Source of the DNA: a virus
DNA length: 38,034 nucleotides
Virus record (IMG/VR): IMGVR_UViG_3300026488_000007
Span: 1 to 38,034 of that record
Strand: one strand, 5' to 3'
Of this stretch, positions 4,954-38,034 are shown piece after piece. Made by a program: the position numbers and the translations under genes. The notes below the pieces were generated by a model. The model was given only the letters and a program-made list of their open reading frames with translations, was not told the origin of the DNA and made no database searches. Within the stretch, counting starts at the first letter, position 1. Each line of letters starts with the position of its first letter.

Positions 4954-5001
4954 GCATGCTTATTATATTTGTGAAATTAAAATTAATGGAGGTTGATAAA
5001 A

Positions 5002-5343
5002 ATGAAACAAAAACCAATGCAAATAACAAAAAAATATCCTGGTGTGTGGTGTGTTGAAAATATGAGAATAGAGAAGCATAAAACTGATGAACTAATCATA
5101 AGTGAATATCAATGGCTAGATTTTGTAAAAAAAAGAAAAAATATTTTCAATAATAAAACAATTTACAGGGTTTATGATTGTGGAAACTTTTTAGTAGTTA
5201 AAGAATTTAATTATTTTAAAGGAAATAAAGACGTTTGGTTGTGGGTTTATGATAAACAAAATAAAGTTTATTATGTTTTATGGAATATTGACAACAAAAA
5301 AAGTATTTGGTTTTATTTGGATTTAATTAAAAATTTAAATTAA
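5002..5343 (+). CDS. Hypothetical protein, 113 aa
   Basis: The ATG at 5002 follows GGAGGTTGATAAA and is the first gene after the promoter at 4939-4953. The product is rich in aromatic residues (several W, Y and F) with beta-like strands such as NKVYYVLWNIDNKKSIWFYL, suggesting a compact beta-rich fold. No catalytic motif is visible. The family is not recognised. First position in the operon suggests early, high expression. Confidence 0.75.
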   Translation: MKQKPMQITKKYPGVWCVENMRIEKHKTDELIISEYQWLDFVKKRKNIFNNKTIYRVYDCGNFLVVKEFNYFKGNKDVWLWVYDKQNKVYYVLWNIDNKKSIWFYLDLIKNLN

Positions 5344-10255: not shown

Positions 10256-10618
10256 ATGAGGATAACAGCAGAAACCATATTGGAGGAAATTTACGGATTA
10301 AACATAGAAGAGATTTTGAAACTCGATGAATTATGTAAGAAACACAATGTTGCTTGGTATGAATTGTTTTATTGGGAAGAAGACATGTGGGATTTGGCAA
10401 TGGATTATTTCATCAAGAAATACAACTTAAAACCAAAGACAAAATGGAGAAAAGATTTAAGTATGGTGTTTTTGAACTATTCACCAACAAGTAGTAAGGA
10501 AAGGTATTTGGAATCTAGGAGTAAAGTTGCTGATGACAATGAAATCCAAAAGATATTAAACAAAGCAGAACCTTTAACTACTAAGAAGATAGTTGAATTG
10601 ATTGAGGTGAAAAAATGA
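10256..10618 (+). CDS. Hypothetical helical protein, 120 aa
   Basis: The ATG at 10256 follows AAAGGGGTGAATGAA. The product is mostly helical and rich in W, Y and acidic residues (WYELFYWEEDMWDLAMDYF). Its stop overlaps the next start (ATGA). No family is recognised. Confidence 0.7.
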   Translation: MRITAETILEEIYGLNIEEILKLDELCKKHNVAWYELFYWEEDMWDLAMDYFIKKYNLKPKTKWRKDLSMVFLNYSPTSSKERYLESRSKVADDNEIQKILNKAEPLTTKKIVELIEVKK

Positions 10619-29140: not shown

Positions 29141-30412
29141 TTAAGCTAAATAAACACTATATTCATTTGAAACAGACATGCCAAGATCTTTCTGCATTTG
29201 TGCTTGCTTCCTTAACAACTCATCATATTTATCTATGACTTTATCCATTACATTTGCAACATCTTCCCAAAAACTCTTTACTTTCGATTGTTCAATAACT
29301 CTGTTCAATTCATCCTGACTTATAGTTAAATCACCTGTCTTTTTCTTAATTTCTTCAATTTTCTCTTCTATTTTTAATGTCTCAATATTCTTCTTTAAAT
29401 TATCAATACTTTCTCCAAAAAACCATTTATATAAACTTTTGCCAACGGGTCCTAAAGCAGTCCACAGATCATACACAAATTCTCCAGCAATAATAGCAAT
29501 TTTTCTGGACACTGCCCTTCCAAATACTTCGGAAAACTTTTCCTGTAATTTTGCACCAAGCTTTTCAATCCAGGGTGAAATTAATTTCATTATTTCAGCA
29601 GCAATTACGATTTCTGTTATAGTAACACCTAATTTAGCACTTAAATTCAATTTTTTAAAACTTTTTTTACCAGTAAAATAATCTATTGCATCTTTCCATG
29701 TTTCTGGTGTCACTAAATCAATAACAAACGAAGCTGTTTTTGATATTGCTTTCATACTCTTAAGTTTGTTTAATGCATCAACAAATAAACTTATTTGAGC
29801 AACCCATTGAGCTAATGTTGCTATCGCTGAAATAGTCATTCCACCAACAACCAAAGACACAGCAATCTTTGGATGAGCTGATACAAATTCAGCAGTTGCA
29901 TTAACTAATTGAACAAATAACTGAACAAATTTCCTAACAAAATCTGTTCTTGAAAAAGTATCAACAATAACAAAACCCAAATAAGACAATGCAGCTGATG
30001 CTTGATTAACTGCGTTGCTGAATTCAGTTTGTCCTTGAGTTACTTTTTGATAATTCTTAAACCAACCACCTAAAACATTATTTATCTTCCTTGAAACTGA
30101 CCATGAAAAGAACAACAAAGATAAATTATAACCAAGTCTTGCACCTTGTAATCTTGCTAATTTGTGTTCTTTTTCTCTTTCTTTAGCAATTTGAGCAGCT
30201 AATTTTGCTTTAGCTCTCAAAAATTTCAAATGCTTATGTTCTTTGTCTAATAAAGTTATTTGTCTTTCATTCAAAGACTTCATGAAAACATTCCAACTAC
30301 CAAATTCCTTGTTGATTTTCTTTACTGCACTATTAATATCTCTTGTTTTGTCACTCTTCAACTTTGTTATTATGTTCAAAATAATGTCTTTTTGTTCAGC
30401 TTTTTTTGCCAT
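29141..30412 (-). CDS. Tail tape measure protein, 423 aa
   Basis: The ATG at 30410-30412 overlaps the end of the frameshifted chaperone ORF by 17 bases. It has charged helices and coiled coil at the start (LDKEHKHLKFLRAKAKLAAQ, then IAKEREKEHKLARL), several hydrophobic segments in the middle (AVSLVVGGMTISAIATLAQW, ITEIVIAAEIMKLI), and a helical end. Gene order after the tail chaperones fixes the call. At about 0.15 nm per residue it would set a tail of roughly 60 nm, a short siphovirus tail. This length is an inference from known tape-measure scaling. Confidence 0.88.
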   Translation of the reverse strand: MAKKAEQKDIILNIITKLKSDKTRDINSAVKKINKEFGSWNVFMKSLNERQITLLDKEHKHLKFLRAKAKLAAQIAKEREKEHKLARLQGARLGYNLSLLFFSWSVSRKINNVLGGWFKNYQKVTQGQTEFSNAVNQASAALSYLGFVIVDTFSRTDFVRKFVQLFVQLVNATAEFVSAHPKIAVSLVVGGMTISAIATLAQWVAQISLFVDALNKLKSMKAISKTASFVIDLVTPETWKDAIDYFTGKKSFKKLNLSAKLGVTITEIVIAAEIMKLISPWIEKLGAKLQEKFSEVFGRAVSRKIAIIAGEFVYDLWTALGPVGKSLYKWFFGESIDNLKKNIETLKIEEKIEEIKKKTGDLTISQDELNRVIEQSKVKSFWEDVANVMDKVIDKYDELLRKQAQMQKDLGMSVSNEYSVYLA

Positions 30413-30596
30413 TTTTCATATAAAGTTTTTTAAATTGTTCAAAATACCAAAATAGCTTTAACACAGGAAAATCTGATGTTATTTGGATTTTTAACTCCTT
30501 TTCAATAAAAAATATGTTTGATTCAAACACATCCAATGGGTCTTCATAACTAATCCCTTCCTTTAACTCTTCCAACAAATCCTCTGGATCATCTAC
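30396..30596 (-). CDS. Tail assembly chaperone, frameshift extension (GT-type)
   Basis: This frame is entered by -1 slippage at 30596-30602 (A AAA AAG) at the very end of the upstream chaperone gene, and adds 66 residues beginning VDDPEDLLEELK. The fusion is 164 aa. The frame is open back to the slippery site and has no good start of its own: the first possible start is a TTG without ribosome site. It ends inside the tape-measure start. In other siphoviruses the fusion binds both tail tube and tape measure. Confidence 0.85.
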   Translation of the reverse strand, partial: VDDPEDLLEELKEGISYEDPLDVFESNIFFIEKELKIQITSDFPVLKLFWYFEQFKKLYMKNGKKS

Positions 30597-30889
30597 TTTT
30601 TTTTTCCGATTGCTTCAACAAAAGCATTAATAAATTCCTCTGCATAATGCATCACTAATAACTTCGCATCATCTAAACTGATATTTAAATCTTTCGCTAC
30701 AATCTTTGGAAATTCCTTAATAAAATACTCAACACCTTTCTCATTTGCTTTCTCAGGATCTGATGTTGCTAACAACAATCCCTCATAAAACTCTACAGTT
30801 GGTTTGAACCTTAACTCTTCACCCTCAATCTCAACAACCATCTCACCATATTTTTTTCTTAGTTGTTTAATCTTTTCTTTGATATCCAT
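30593..30889 (-). CDS. Tail assembly chaperone (G-type), 98 aa
   Basis: The ATG at 30887-30889 follows GAGGTGATTGAGA. The helical protein begins MDIKEKIKQLRKKYGEMVVE and ends AIGKKK, where the last lysine codons form the slippery run GGA AAA AAA AAG followed at once by TAG. Position before the tape measure and after the tail tube, plus the frameshift signal, match gpG of lambda-type tails. The call does not depend on sequence similarity. Confidence 0.85.
   Translation of the reverse strand: MDIKEKIKQLRKKYGEMVVEIEGEELRFKPTVEFYEGLLLATSDPEKANEKGVEYFIKEFPKIVAKDLNISLDDAKLLVMHYAEEFINAFVEAIGKKK
30596..30602 (-). promoter_or_regulatory. A-AAA-AAG programmed -1 frameshift site
   Basis: On the minus strand the zero frame reads GGA AAA AAA AAG TAG. 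The heptamer A AAA AAG lies directly before the stop. Slipping back one base continues with GTA GAT GAT CCA. This is the classic -1 slippery heptamer known from bacterial and phage frameshift sites. Confidence 0.85.
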
Positions 30890-31085
30890 TCTCAATCACC
30901 TCAAATATTTTTAATGTTTTTTCATACCAATCCATCAAAAACTTGATTGTATGCCAATAGGAACTTCCCCATTCTTCATCAGCTAATCTCTTAAACCTGA
31001 GGAAGTGTTCTAATGGCATTGCACTTATCTTAAAACTCACTTCTTTCTTCCCTTCTCTCGTTCTTAATTCAATTCCTTTATCCAT
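30867..31085 (-). CDS. Small tail-module protein, 72 aa
   Basis: The ATG at 31083-31085 follows GAGGTGAAGTGA. A beta-start (KKEVSFKISAMPLEHFLRFK) followed by a helix with WHTIKFLMDWYEKTLKIFE. It sits between tail tube and tail chaperone genes and overlaps the chaperone start by 23 bases. A tail assembly role is inferred from position only. Confidence 0.65.
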   Translation of the reverse strand: MDKGIELRTREGKKEVSFKISAMPLEHFLRFKRLADEEWGSSYWHTIKFLMDWYEKTLKIFEVIENGYQRKD

Positions 31086-31099
31086 TCACTTCACCTCAT

Positions 31100-31654
31100 T
31101 TAGGCTTTAACAACTTGTTTATACAAATCTCCTGCTAAGCACTCAAACTCAAAACTAACTTCAATTACTCCTTTATCTGGTGCATCAAATGCATTTAATT
31201 TATTAATCTTAAAATTCTTCATTAACAATCTCACACCATAATTACTACCAATCACTACTAACAAATCTGCATTAGGTGATAATTCTGCACCATAAACAAA
31301 ATTTGCTTTTGTTCCATCAGTAGATTCTGCAACTTTGTTCAAGAATAATTCATCCAACGCTACATAATTACCTTCTGCATCAGGATTAACTATCATTGTT
31401 CCTAAAACCTTAGCAGTTCCCCATTCATCAATATAACTCTCTTGTAACTGAACTCCATTAGAATCACTACCAAGATAGTTGATAACTTCTCTTGTTGGCT
31501 CTGGTTCATCCAACTTCATAGTCTTAATGTATCCTGTTAACTCTATATCTGCAGTTTGAGTATCCCAATCATCAGTCATTGATGTTGGATCTATCCTATT
31601 ACTATCCTTCAAAATCTTGATTTTCATATCCTTAGATTTTAATGAACTTACCAT
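31100..31654 (-). CDS. Major tail (tube) protein, 184 aa
   Basis: The ATG at 31652-31654 follows AGAGGTGAAAAAC. A beta-rich protein with features common in tail tube proteins: an acidic central loop (IVNPDAEGNYVALDELFLNK), strands NADLLVVIGSNYGVRLLMKN, and a final GVIEVSFEFECLAGDLYKQV strand region. Gene order, after neck proteins and before chaperones, supports it. It should be among the most abundant virion proteins. Confidence 0.8.
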   Translation of the reverse strand: MVSSLKSKDMKIKILKDSNRIDPTSMTDDWDTQTADIELTGYIKTMKLDEPEPTREVINYLGSDSNGVQLQESYIDEWGTAKVLGTMIVNPDAEGNYVALDELFLNKVAESTDGTKANFVYGAELSPNADLLVVIGSNYGVRLLMKNFKINKLNAFDAPDKGVIEVSFEFECLAGDLYKQVVKA

Positions 31655-31670
31655 GTTTTTCACCTCTTGT

Positions 31671-32108
31671 TTATTTTGTAGCTTGTTTTAATAGTTTATC
31701 AAGTTGTTTTAGAGCAGCATTAATTGCATCATCAACATATTTCGCAGGTGTTCCTTTTTGTTTGGATTTCAAATGAATATATTCCGATGGTTTTAATACA
31801 CCTTTTCCACGAACATTACCTTGATCCTCAATATAAACAACCCATGTCCTTTTAGTTTGTCTCAATCTTAATGATTGTTCTGAAGGTCTGCCACCTCTCC
31901 TACTCCAAGGACCTGGTCTTGATGAATGTGATGAATAAGGAGCATTAGCAAGTCTTGCTCTTAAACTCCTCAAAATAAATTGTGTTATTCTGAATGAAGC
32001 TTTTTGAACTCTTTTATATAATTTCAAAGTTTCCTCATTAACAACATTAATAATTGCCTTTTCAACCTTTTTCCAATCTTTTTCATCTCTAATTGTAATA
32101 GTTACCAT
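31671..32108 (-). CDS. Head-tail joining or tail completion protein (gp10-like), 145 aa
   Basis: The ATG at 32106-32108 overlaps the previous gene by seven bases. Two N-terminal helices (DWKKVEKAIINVVNEETLKL) precede an R/S/P-rich middle (PYSSHSSRPGPWSRRGGRPS) and a region with WVVYIEDQGNVRGKGVLKPS and EYIHLKSKQKGTPAKYVDDA. This is the typical pattern of HK97 gp10-type tail-joining proteins. Position fits. Confidence 0.75.
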   Translation of the reverse strand: MVTITIRDEKDWKKVEKAIINVVNEETLKLYKRVQKASFRITQFILRSLRARLANAPYSSHSSRPGPWSRRGGRPSEQSLRLRQTKRTWVVYIEDQGNVRGKGVLKPSEYIHLKSKQKGTPAKYVDDAINAALKQLDKLLKQATK

Positions 32109-32482
32109 TGTAACTCAAGAGTAATTAAATCCTCATGCATGATTTTGTTTGATTTTTTATATTCGGCTGAACCTTCATCTCTTATTGATTTGGTTGCTCC
32201 ATAAAAGTCATTGTTTCTCAAAACATCAATGACTTTTTGTGATAGTTCATCTAATTCCTGAGATGTTTGAGTGTAAACATAAATGTCAACTGTAAATGTG
32301 TAAGAAATAACAGAATCATCAATTAAGAACTCTTTTTCTTCGTATTCAGGATTAGAAATAACAATGAAAGGTAAAGTTGGCTCTTTTTTTGGATAAGCAG
32401 AATAAACTCTATTATTGACTTCTGGAATGTTGTTCTTAAGAAGTTCTAACAATCTTAAAAATATCTCTTTCTTTGTTGCCAT
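32102..32482 (-). CDS. Tail terminator-like protein, 126 aa
   Basis: The ATG at 32480-32482 follows AAGGTGATGCCTGC. N-terminal helix (EIFLRLLELLKNNIPEVNNR), then FIVISNPEYEEKEFLIDDSV and TFTVDIYVYTQTSQELDELS with a late helix. This alpha/beta pattern is usual for tail terminators that cap the tail tube. The position among neck genes fits. The assignment is by pattern. Confidence 0.7.
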   Translation of the reverse strand: MATKKEIFLRLLELLKNNIPEVNNRVYSAYPKKEPTLPFIVISNPEYEEKEFLIDDSVISYTFTVDIYVYTQTSQELDELSQKVIDVLRNNDFYGATKSIRDEGSAEYKKSNKIMHEDLITLELQW

Positions 32483-33460: not shown

Positions 33461-33506
33461 CTTATATCACCAAACAAAAGTAAAAAAGAAAGAAAAAAAG
33501 GAGTGC

Positions 33507-37344: not shown

Positions 37345-38034
37345 TCATATTAATTCAGCTTTGAACTGATTTGAATCATCACTTATCGCTGAAACTGCCA
37401 TAACAAATGAATCAATCACATCATCTGTTCCATTCTTTGGCTTATGTAATGATGGAACTCCCATTGATGTTTCTTCTTTAATCAATTCCTTCATTTCACG
37501 AATCAAAACATCATACTTCGGAAACTTTATTGCTCCAAGATTTAACAATTGCTTAAACCTAACATAAGCAGGTATCTTCTCTTTATGGAAATCAAATTCT
37601 TTCACATAATAACCTGCTTTTTGAAGTTCATTAATGAAATCTTTTGCTTGAATACAATTATCAACAACAATTGTTCCAATATTGTAAATCGTTTTAAGAT
37701 AATCAATGTATTTCAAAACAACATCATTTGTCGTGTGTTGCTCAAATCTCTTCCAATCAATCAATTTAATAATTCCATCAGCAGGATCTTTATAAACAAC
37801 CGTAATAACTGTCAATGAGTTATGCCATCCTAAATCTATACCTAAAACAACAGGTTGACCTTGTCTGTATTGATCCTTAACTCTATCATCGATTGCTTTA
37901 TCAATCACTTCAACATTAAAAAAGTTTGAACCTGATAAAACAAAATCACATTCATACTCTTGAGCAAACTCATTTGGATGCATCAGCCTTCTTTGCTCTT
38001 CAACCATCTTTAAATACTTTTCATCTTGGTTGAT
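37345..38034 (-). CDS. terL: Terminase large subunit, C-terminal nuclease part (gene split by contig ends)
   Basis: This is the RNase H-like nuclease half of the same terL gene, which cuts concatemeric DNA into genome units. In full-protein numbering the expected acidic residues are visible: D325 in VLGIDLG, D383 in IVVDN, and D462/D463/D466 in GTDDVIDSF. The 127 bases at 37908-38034 duplicate the start of the window, so the reading frame enters from the contig edge and has no start here. It stops with TGA at 37345, two bases from a 35-bp element that carries the portal promoter. Length (487 aa joined) is normal for a siphovirus terminase. Confidence 0.95.
   Translation of the reverse strand: MNQDEKYLKMVEEQRRLMHPNEFAQEYECDFVLSGSNFFNVEVIDKAIDDRVKDQYRQGQPVVLGIDLGWHNSLTVITVVYKDPADGIIKLIDWKRFEQHTTNDVVLKYIDYLKTIYNIGTIVVDNCIQAKDFINELQKAGYYVKEFDFHKEKIPAYVRFKQLLNLGAIKFPKYDVLIREMKELIKEETSMGVPSLHKPKNGTDDVIDSFVMAVSAISDDSNQFKAELI
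37908..38034. repeat. 127-bp exact terminal direct repeat, right copy
   Basis: This is the second copy of bases 1-127. It lies inside the terL coding sequence. Removing one copy gives a circular unit of 37,907 bp. Confidence 0.95.

Follow-up and report, generated by a model that had tools for sequence, protein, structure and literature searches.

Two tail genes, G and T, as a candidate -1 recoded gene at a nine-A run in a virus of probable archaeal host

Two short open reading frames, here called G and T, follow each other on the minus strand of a 38,034-nucleotide viral DNA (the whole of which is the window), and they raise the question of whether they are two genes or one gene read in two frames. 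The initial annotation took them for a tail chaperone fusion of the gpG/gpGT type, made by -1 frameshifting at A-AAA-AAG in an archaeal virus. In our analysis, a G-T fusion made via -1 recoding, whichever machine slips, is the main reading, and we give it a probability of about 0.85.

Gene neighbourhood and the two reading frames

The ends of the window share an identical 127-base direct repeat (1-127 and 37908-38034), so the genome is probably complete, and it is probably circularly permuted or terminally redundant. The large terminase gene apparently spans the contig junction. The gene order runs from terminase, portal (PF04860), a ChaB-domain protein, capsid (PF05065) and neck proteins to the tail terminator and the presumed tail tube, followed by a 72-aa protein, G, T and the presumed tape measure (Table 1). 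Neither the presumed tube protein, the 72-aa protein nor the tape-measure protein of the window itself matched a known family, while the syntenic protein of a more distant relative, L005, matches tape-measure PHROGs (phrog_167, E 2e-9). G and T therefore have the major tail protein gene on one side and the tape-measure gene on the other, the tape measure being identified by L005 synteny and the tube by position. This order equals lambda V-G-T-H, and the gpG/gpGT-like layout is thus borne out. Two other features of this genome were observed. The 72-aa protein, kept in L005 at 58% identity, is one of three small proteins (72-85 aa; L002 5808-6023, L005 7792-8049) that carry SAMPxEHFLRFKxxADEEWGxSYWHxIKFL. 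Among the tail-fibre-like genes lies a 23S_rRNA_IVP four-helix protein (PF05635; 22681-23052, minus strand), whose family is related to the Avd protein of diversity-generating retroelements; no obvious reverse transcriptase was seen in the genome.

Table 1. Positions in the window of the features discussed
Feature	Position	Strand	Remark
Tandem oligo-T tracts 3' of the major capsid gene, possibly a terminator of archaeal type	33461..33506	minus	same place in L004 and L005
Tail terminator	32102..32482	minus	phrog_78, E 4.9e-13
Presumed major tail (tube) protein	31100..31663	minus	position between tail terminator/completion genes and G
Conserved 72-aa small protein directly upstream of G	30867..31085	minus	58-85% identical in three viruses
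G, 98-aa tail-assembly-chaperone-like ORF	30593..30889	minus	ATG start, SD GAGGTGAT
Slip site GGA AAA AAA AAG	30596..30607	minus	directly 5' of the TAG stop; identical in L002
T, -1-frame ORF of 66 codons lacking a credible start of its own	30396..30596	minus	codon-position differences vs L002
Presumed tape-measure protein, 423 aa	29141..30412	minus	ATG 30412 inside T, without SD

The coordinates, the lengths and the peptide of the G/T site were recomputed from the sequence and were right in the initial annotation. The ATG of G is preceded by GAGGTGATTGAGA, and its last codons read GGA AAA AAA AAG TAG, which confirms that a slippery sequence stands directly before the stop. The run of nine A (plus coordinates 30597-30605) holds two heptamers of the X_XXY_YYZ type near the end of G, A_AAA_AAA and, one codon 3' of it, A_AAA_AAG, and the fusion product would be the same from either. 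After the slip, the -1 frame begins GTA GAT GAT CCA ... (VDDPEDLLEELKEG...) and stays open over 66 codons until the TGA at 30398-30396. T overlaps the presumed tape-measure start by 17 nt; the predicted sequence across the slip is ...GKKK-VDDPEDLLEELKEGISYEDPLDVFESNIFFIEKELKIQITSDFPVLKLFWYFEQFKKLYMKNGKKS. Codons 7 and 8 of T are TTG, codon 23 is a GTG (not conserved) and the sole ATG is codon 60; none of these start-like codons has an SD conserved in L002, in agreement with the annotated lack of a usable start.

The AlphaFold2 model of G (pLDDT 82) consists of a helix, a beta hairpin and three helices. No significant sequence match of G to known chaperones was found in Pfam or PHROG. By comparing the predicted fold with PDB and BFVD, we found nothing significant, the top BFVD entry being a tail assembly chaperone at E 0.29, and a second comparison with PDB gave no clear match. 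The putative chaperone role of G is thus suggested mainly by gene position. The structure model of T is of low confidence (pLDDT 61).

Selection on T and on the A run

Searches of viral contigs, genome contigs and phages (tblastn) found close relatives limited to L005 and to one virus represented by L002 and L004 (contig IMGVR_UViG_3300005264_000162). Another candidate, L003, was dropped as a weak local match whose other genes have no correspondence to this virus. The L002/L004 virus is 70% identical to the window in nucleotides over 9.2 kb; its G is 86% and its T 82% identical, and GGAAAAAAAAAGTAGA is the same. The differences between the two T sequences fall on the three codon positions of the -1 frame as 8/7/27 (dN 0.11, dS 1.7, NG86), and those between the two G sequences fall as 6/3/46 in their own frame. 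Because the differences in T are concentrated at third positions of the -1 frame, T is evidently translated in that frame; the remaining two frames across T contain several stops in both viruses. These comparisons indicate purifying selection on T that is confined to the -1 frame. The two T sequences are identical for at most 26 nt in a row, a length that is ordinary for this region.

The same comparison bears on whether T could be a protein in its own right, with translation beginning at the TTG of codon 7 or 8 or resuming by reinitiation past the G stop. The pair TTG TTG is conserved in both viruses, and the second ORF of L005 has its own ATG. However, the GAGG that precedes TTG in the window is absent from L002 (CCAGAGGAT vs CCTGAAGAC), the conservation of the -1 frame reaches upstream of TTG as far as the slip site, and nearly all genes here begin with ATG, with an SD in 48 of 59, so we regard a separately started T as improbable. 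An assembly or population indel, by which the true gene would have ten A and form a single ORF, seems more improbable still: homopolymers of nine bases are well-known places for errors, but the same run of nine A is found in an independent contig of another virus, at the 70% nucleotide identity given above.

The slip site is common to two genomes only. The heptamer and the open -1 frame are kept in L002, while L005, whose portal is 46% and capsid 53% identical, has no A run. At the place of G, L005 has a 95-aa ORF weakly similar to the window G (E 0.029 in a single BLAST of the pair), a similarity that is only suggestive of relatedness. Next comes a second ORF, of 92 aa and in the +1 frame; it starts at an ATG of its own, overlaps the first by 23 nt and has no poly-A site. 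The tape-measure gene follows; no relationship of the 92-aa ORF to T was detectable. Either L005 uses a different recoding signal (cf. HSTV-2, thought to be +1) or it has two separate genes. As an observation in its own right, L005 8042-8585 is a possible case of +1 recoding, with the 23-nt ORF overlap and no known slip motif. Homologues with separate, well-started ORFs had been named beforehand as evidence against a fusion, and L005 partly has such a layout. The layout of L005 is a real limit on the claim that recoding is conserved.

The A run itself departs from expectation. No other A or T run in the 38-kb genome reaches nine, whereas 200 dinucleotide shuffles contain 9.4 such runs on average; likewise, no other A run in the late genes reaches eight, whereas synonymous resampling of their codons yields 6.7 on average. 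Meanwhile, the other three KKK sites of the late genes are interrupted by AAG. These counts, together with the broken KKK sites, suggest that long A runs are avoided in the late genes yet kept at the slip site. We also scanned ORFs of 60 codons or more for X_XXY_YYZ at most five codons from the stop, requiring the -1 frame to stay open for a further 50 codons or more. The window gave two sites, and any such site was present in 12 of 200 dinucleotide-shuffled genomes. The second site (plus 4993-5343) was rejected, its downstream ORF having its own start and SD. The identity of the four slip-site codons alone between the two genomes is not significant (P about 0.17). As read from the sequences, the comparative data are stronger evidence than the heptamer scan.

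Slippage by the ribosome or by RNA polymerase

According to the above comparisons, G and T would be one recoded gene. Most decoding would end at the TAG after the nine-A run and give G of 98 aa, and a minority would move to the -1 frame on the run, read through T and give a G-T protein of about 164 aa. By analogy with lambda, G would coat the tape-measure protein, the T part would recruit the tail-tube subunit, and the G:GT ratio would matter for tail assembly.

On the ribosomal route, tandem tRNA-Lys slippage would take place on A_AAA_AAA or A_AAA_AAG, and given that the fusion is made, we consider this more likely than a transcriptional slip (about 60:40). The ribosome is favoured because the wanted frequency is low and low-level G/T shifting may need no stimulator. 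The RNA downstream of the site has ordinary fold energies (z -0.07 and -1.7 at 90 nt), giving no sign of a stimulator, and no upstream SD-like stimulator was found near the slip site. A predicted hairpin about 70 nt 3' of the slip site (window 30504-30535, minus strand; L002 6356-6380) has 5' arm sequences that differ between the two viruses; we rejected it as a classical stimulator since, though folding in both viruses, it is too far from the slip site.

It is also possible, with a lower probability, that RNA polymerase slips on the nine A, so that some transcripts carry ten and are translated normally into an identical GT. One added A gives GGA AAA AAA AAA GTA and the same GKKKVDDPED product. 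On runs of nine A or T, E. coli polymerase is highly prone to slip, and in Thermus dnaX nine T's give about 50% product (PMC5009743). The nine-A run, the sole such run in the genome, exceeds what a heptamer needs. Against this, the literature searched gave no example of slippage by an archaeal polymerase, and the known G/T pairs are ascribed to ribosomal shifts. The choice of heptamer also bears on the two routes. Archaea usually have tRNAs for both AAA and AAG. Separate tRNAs for the two codons have been argued to disfavour ribosomal slippage on A_AAA_AAG, and the reliance of Thermus on polymerase slippage has been linked to them (PMC5009743). However, A_AAA_AAA within the same run escapes this problem, and it may outperform A_AAA_AAG in a host whose AAG codons are read by a tRNA-Lys of their own. 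In magnesium chelatase sites placed in E. coli, a longer poly-A led to more frameshifting, with 40% at nine A's (PMC3711429).

Therefore, the recoded fusion proposed by the initial annotation is supported, but its assignment to A-AAA-AAG is too narrow, for A_AAA_AAA and polymerase slippage yield the same product. A peptide crossing GKKKVDDPED cannot separate ribosome from polymerase slippage either, because both yield an identical protein.

The start of the tape-measure gene, which has no SD in the window virus or in L002, adds a question of dosage. It is reasonable to infer that translation of the tape measure is coupled to passage through T. The tape-measure start of L005 likewise overlaps the end of the preceding ORF. 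The missing SD is not special evidence, as other tightly packed genes of the window lack one too. The tape-measure gene lacks a ribosome-binding site and its start lies within T, so a slip of archaeal RNA polymerase on the nine A might make GT and, through coupled translation of the tape measure, set both dosages at once; we regard this combined proposal as unlikely. Ribosomal -1 slippage on the run is still the route that we prefer.

Host and known recoded tail genes

The host is probably an archaeon. The SD register is GAGGTGA, not AGGAGG, with GGTGA occurring 28 times against 8 for AGGAG/GGAGG in the window virus; the corresponding counts are 1 vs 19 and 7 vs 20 in two bacterial controls, phi11 and a Thermus phage, but also 3 vs 8 in the archaeal psiM2. 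Tandem oligo-T tracts stand after the major capsid gene in the window, and likewise directly after that gene at L004 10651-10676 and L005 5405-5436; a stable hairpin precedes them in L004 only (one of three viruses). Oligo-T without a stable hairpin is typical of archaeal termination. Also encoded in the genome is a protein with DUF2341, which is frequent among surface proteins of archaea. The genome contigs searched gave no close provirus, only distant terminases in bacteria. An archaeal virus, as annotated, is thus probable from the SD register and the oligo-T tracts, though this support is indirect.

Compared with lambda, the window has the same order of major tail protein, G, T and tape measure and the same location of a -1 shift near the end of G, and in both T overlaps the next start (in lambda, T ends at 10549 and H starts at 10542). 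Lambda slips at G_GGA_AAG and the window virus at the nine-A run; lambda G continues past its slip site before the stop, whereas the stop of the window G is the very next codon; and lambda H has a strong SD, which the window tape-measure gene lacks. There is no detectable sequence homology between lambda G/GT and the window G/T.

Among haloarchaeal viruses, HVTV-1, HCTV-1, 2 and 5 and Hardycor1 have predicted -1 heptamers at the same gene position as here. Such sites have been reported for HVTV-1 and HCTV-1, 2 and 5, and a +1 shift is supposed for HSTV-2 (PMC5009743, PMC8211752); the heptamer is A_AAA_AAC in HCTV-2 (PMC5009743, PMC7911831) and G_GGA_AAT in Hardycor1 (PMC7911831), and viruses of the HF1 group may use +1 (PMC7230728). 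The initial annotation's suggestion of the same recoding on archaeal ribosomes therefore overstates the novelty. The window differs from these viruses in its slip codon, its nine-A run and its low GC, and its host is indicated by indirect evidence. A 2021 review counted one cellular gene as proven archaeal -1 recoding, the virus cases being reported from sequence alone (PMC8211752).

Two cellular genes also resemble the site. The dnaX gene of Thermus thermophilus has a nine-base A/T run able to yield an added A, as here, but slippage there ends the product early, whereas in the window it would extend it. The magnesium chelatase gene of Methanocaldococcus and Methanococcus has A_AAA_AAR in an archaeal gene overlap, like the window site (PMC5009743, PMC3711429); it is cellular and its frameshift was tested in E. 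coli only, whereas the window gene is viral.

G/T recoding is general in tailed phages, and the window adds one example to the known cases, of which the less usual feature is the nine-A run. The site is compact and under selection, and the virus is low in GC and probably archaeal in host; a reporter built on the site could show which archaeal machine, the ribosome or RNA polymerase, slips on long A runs.
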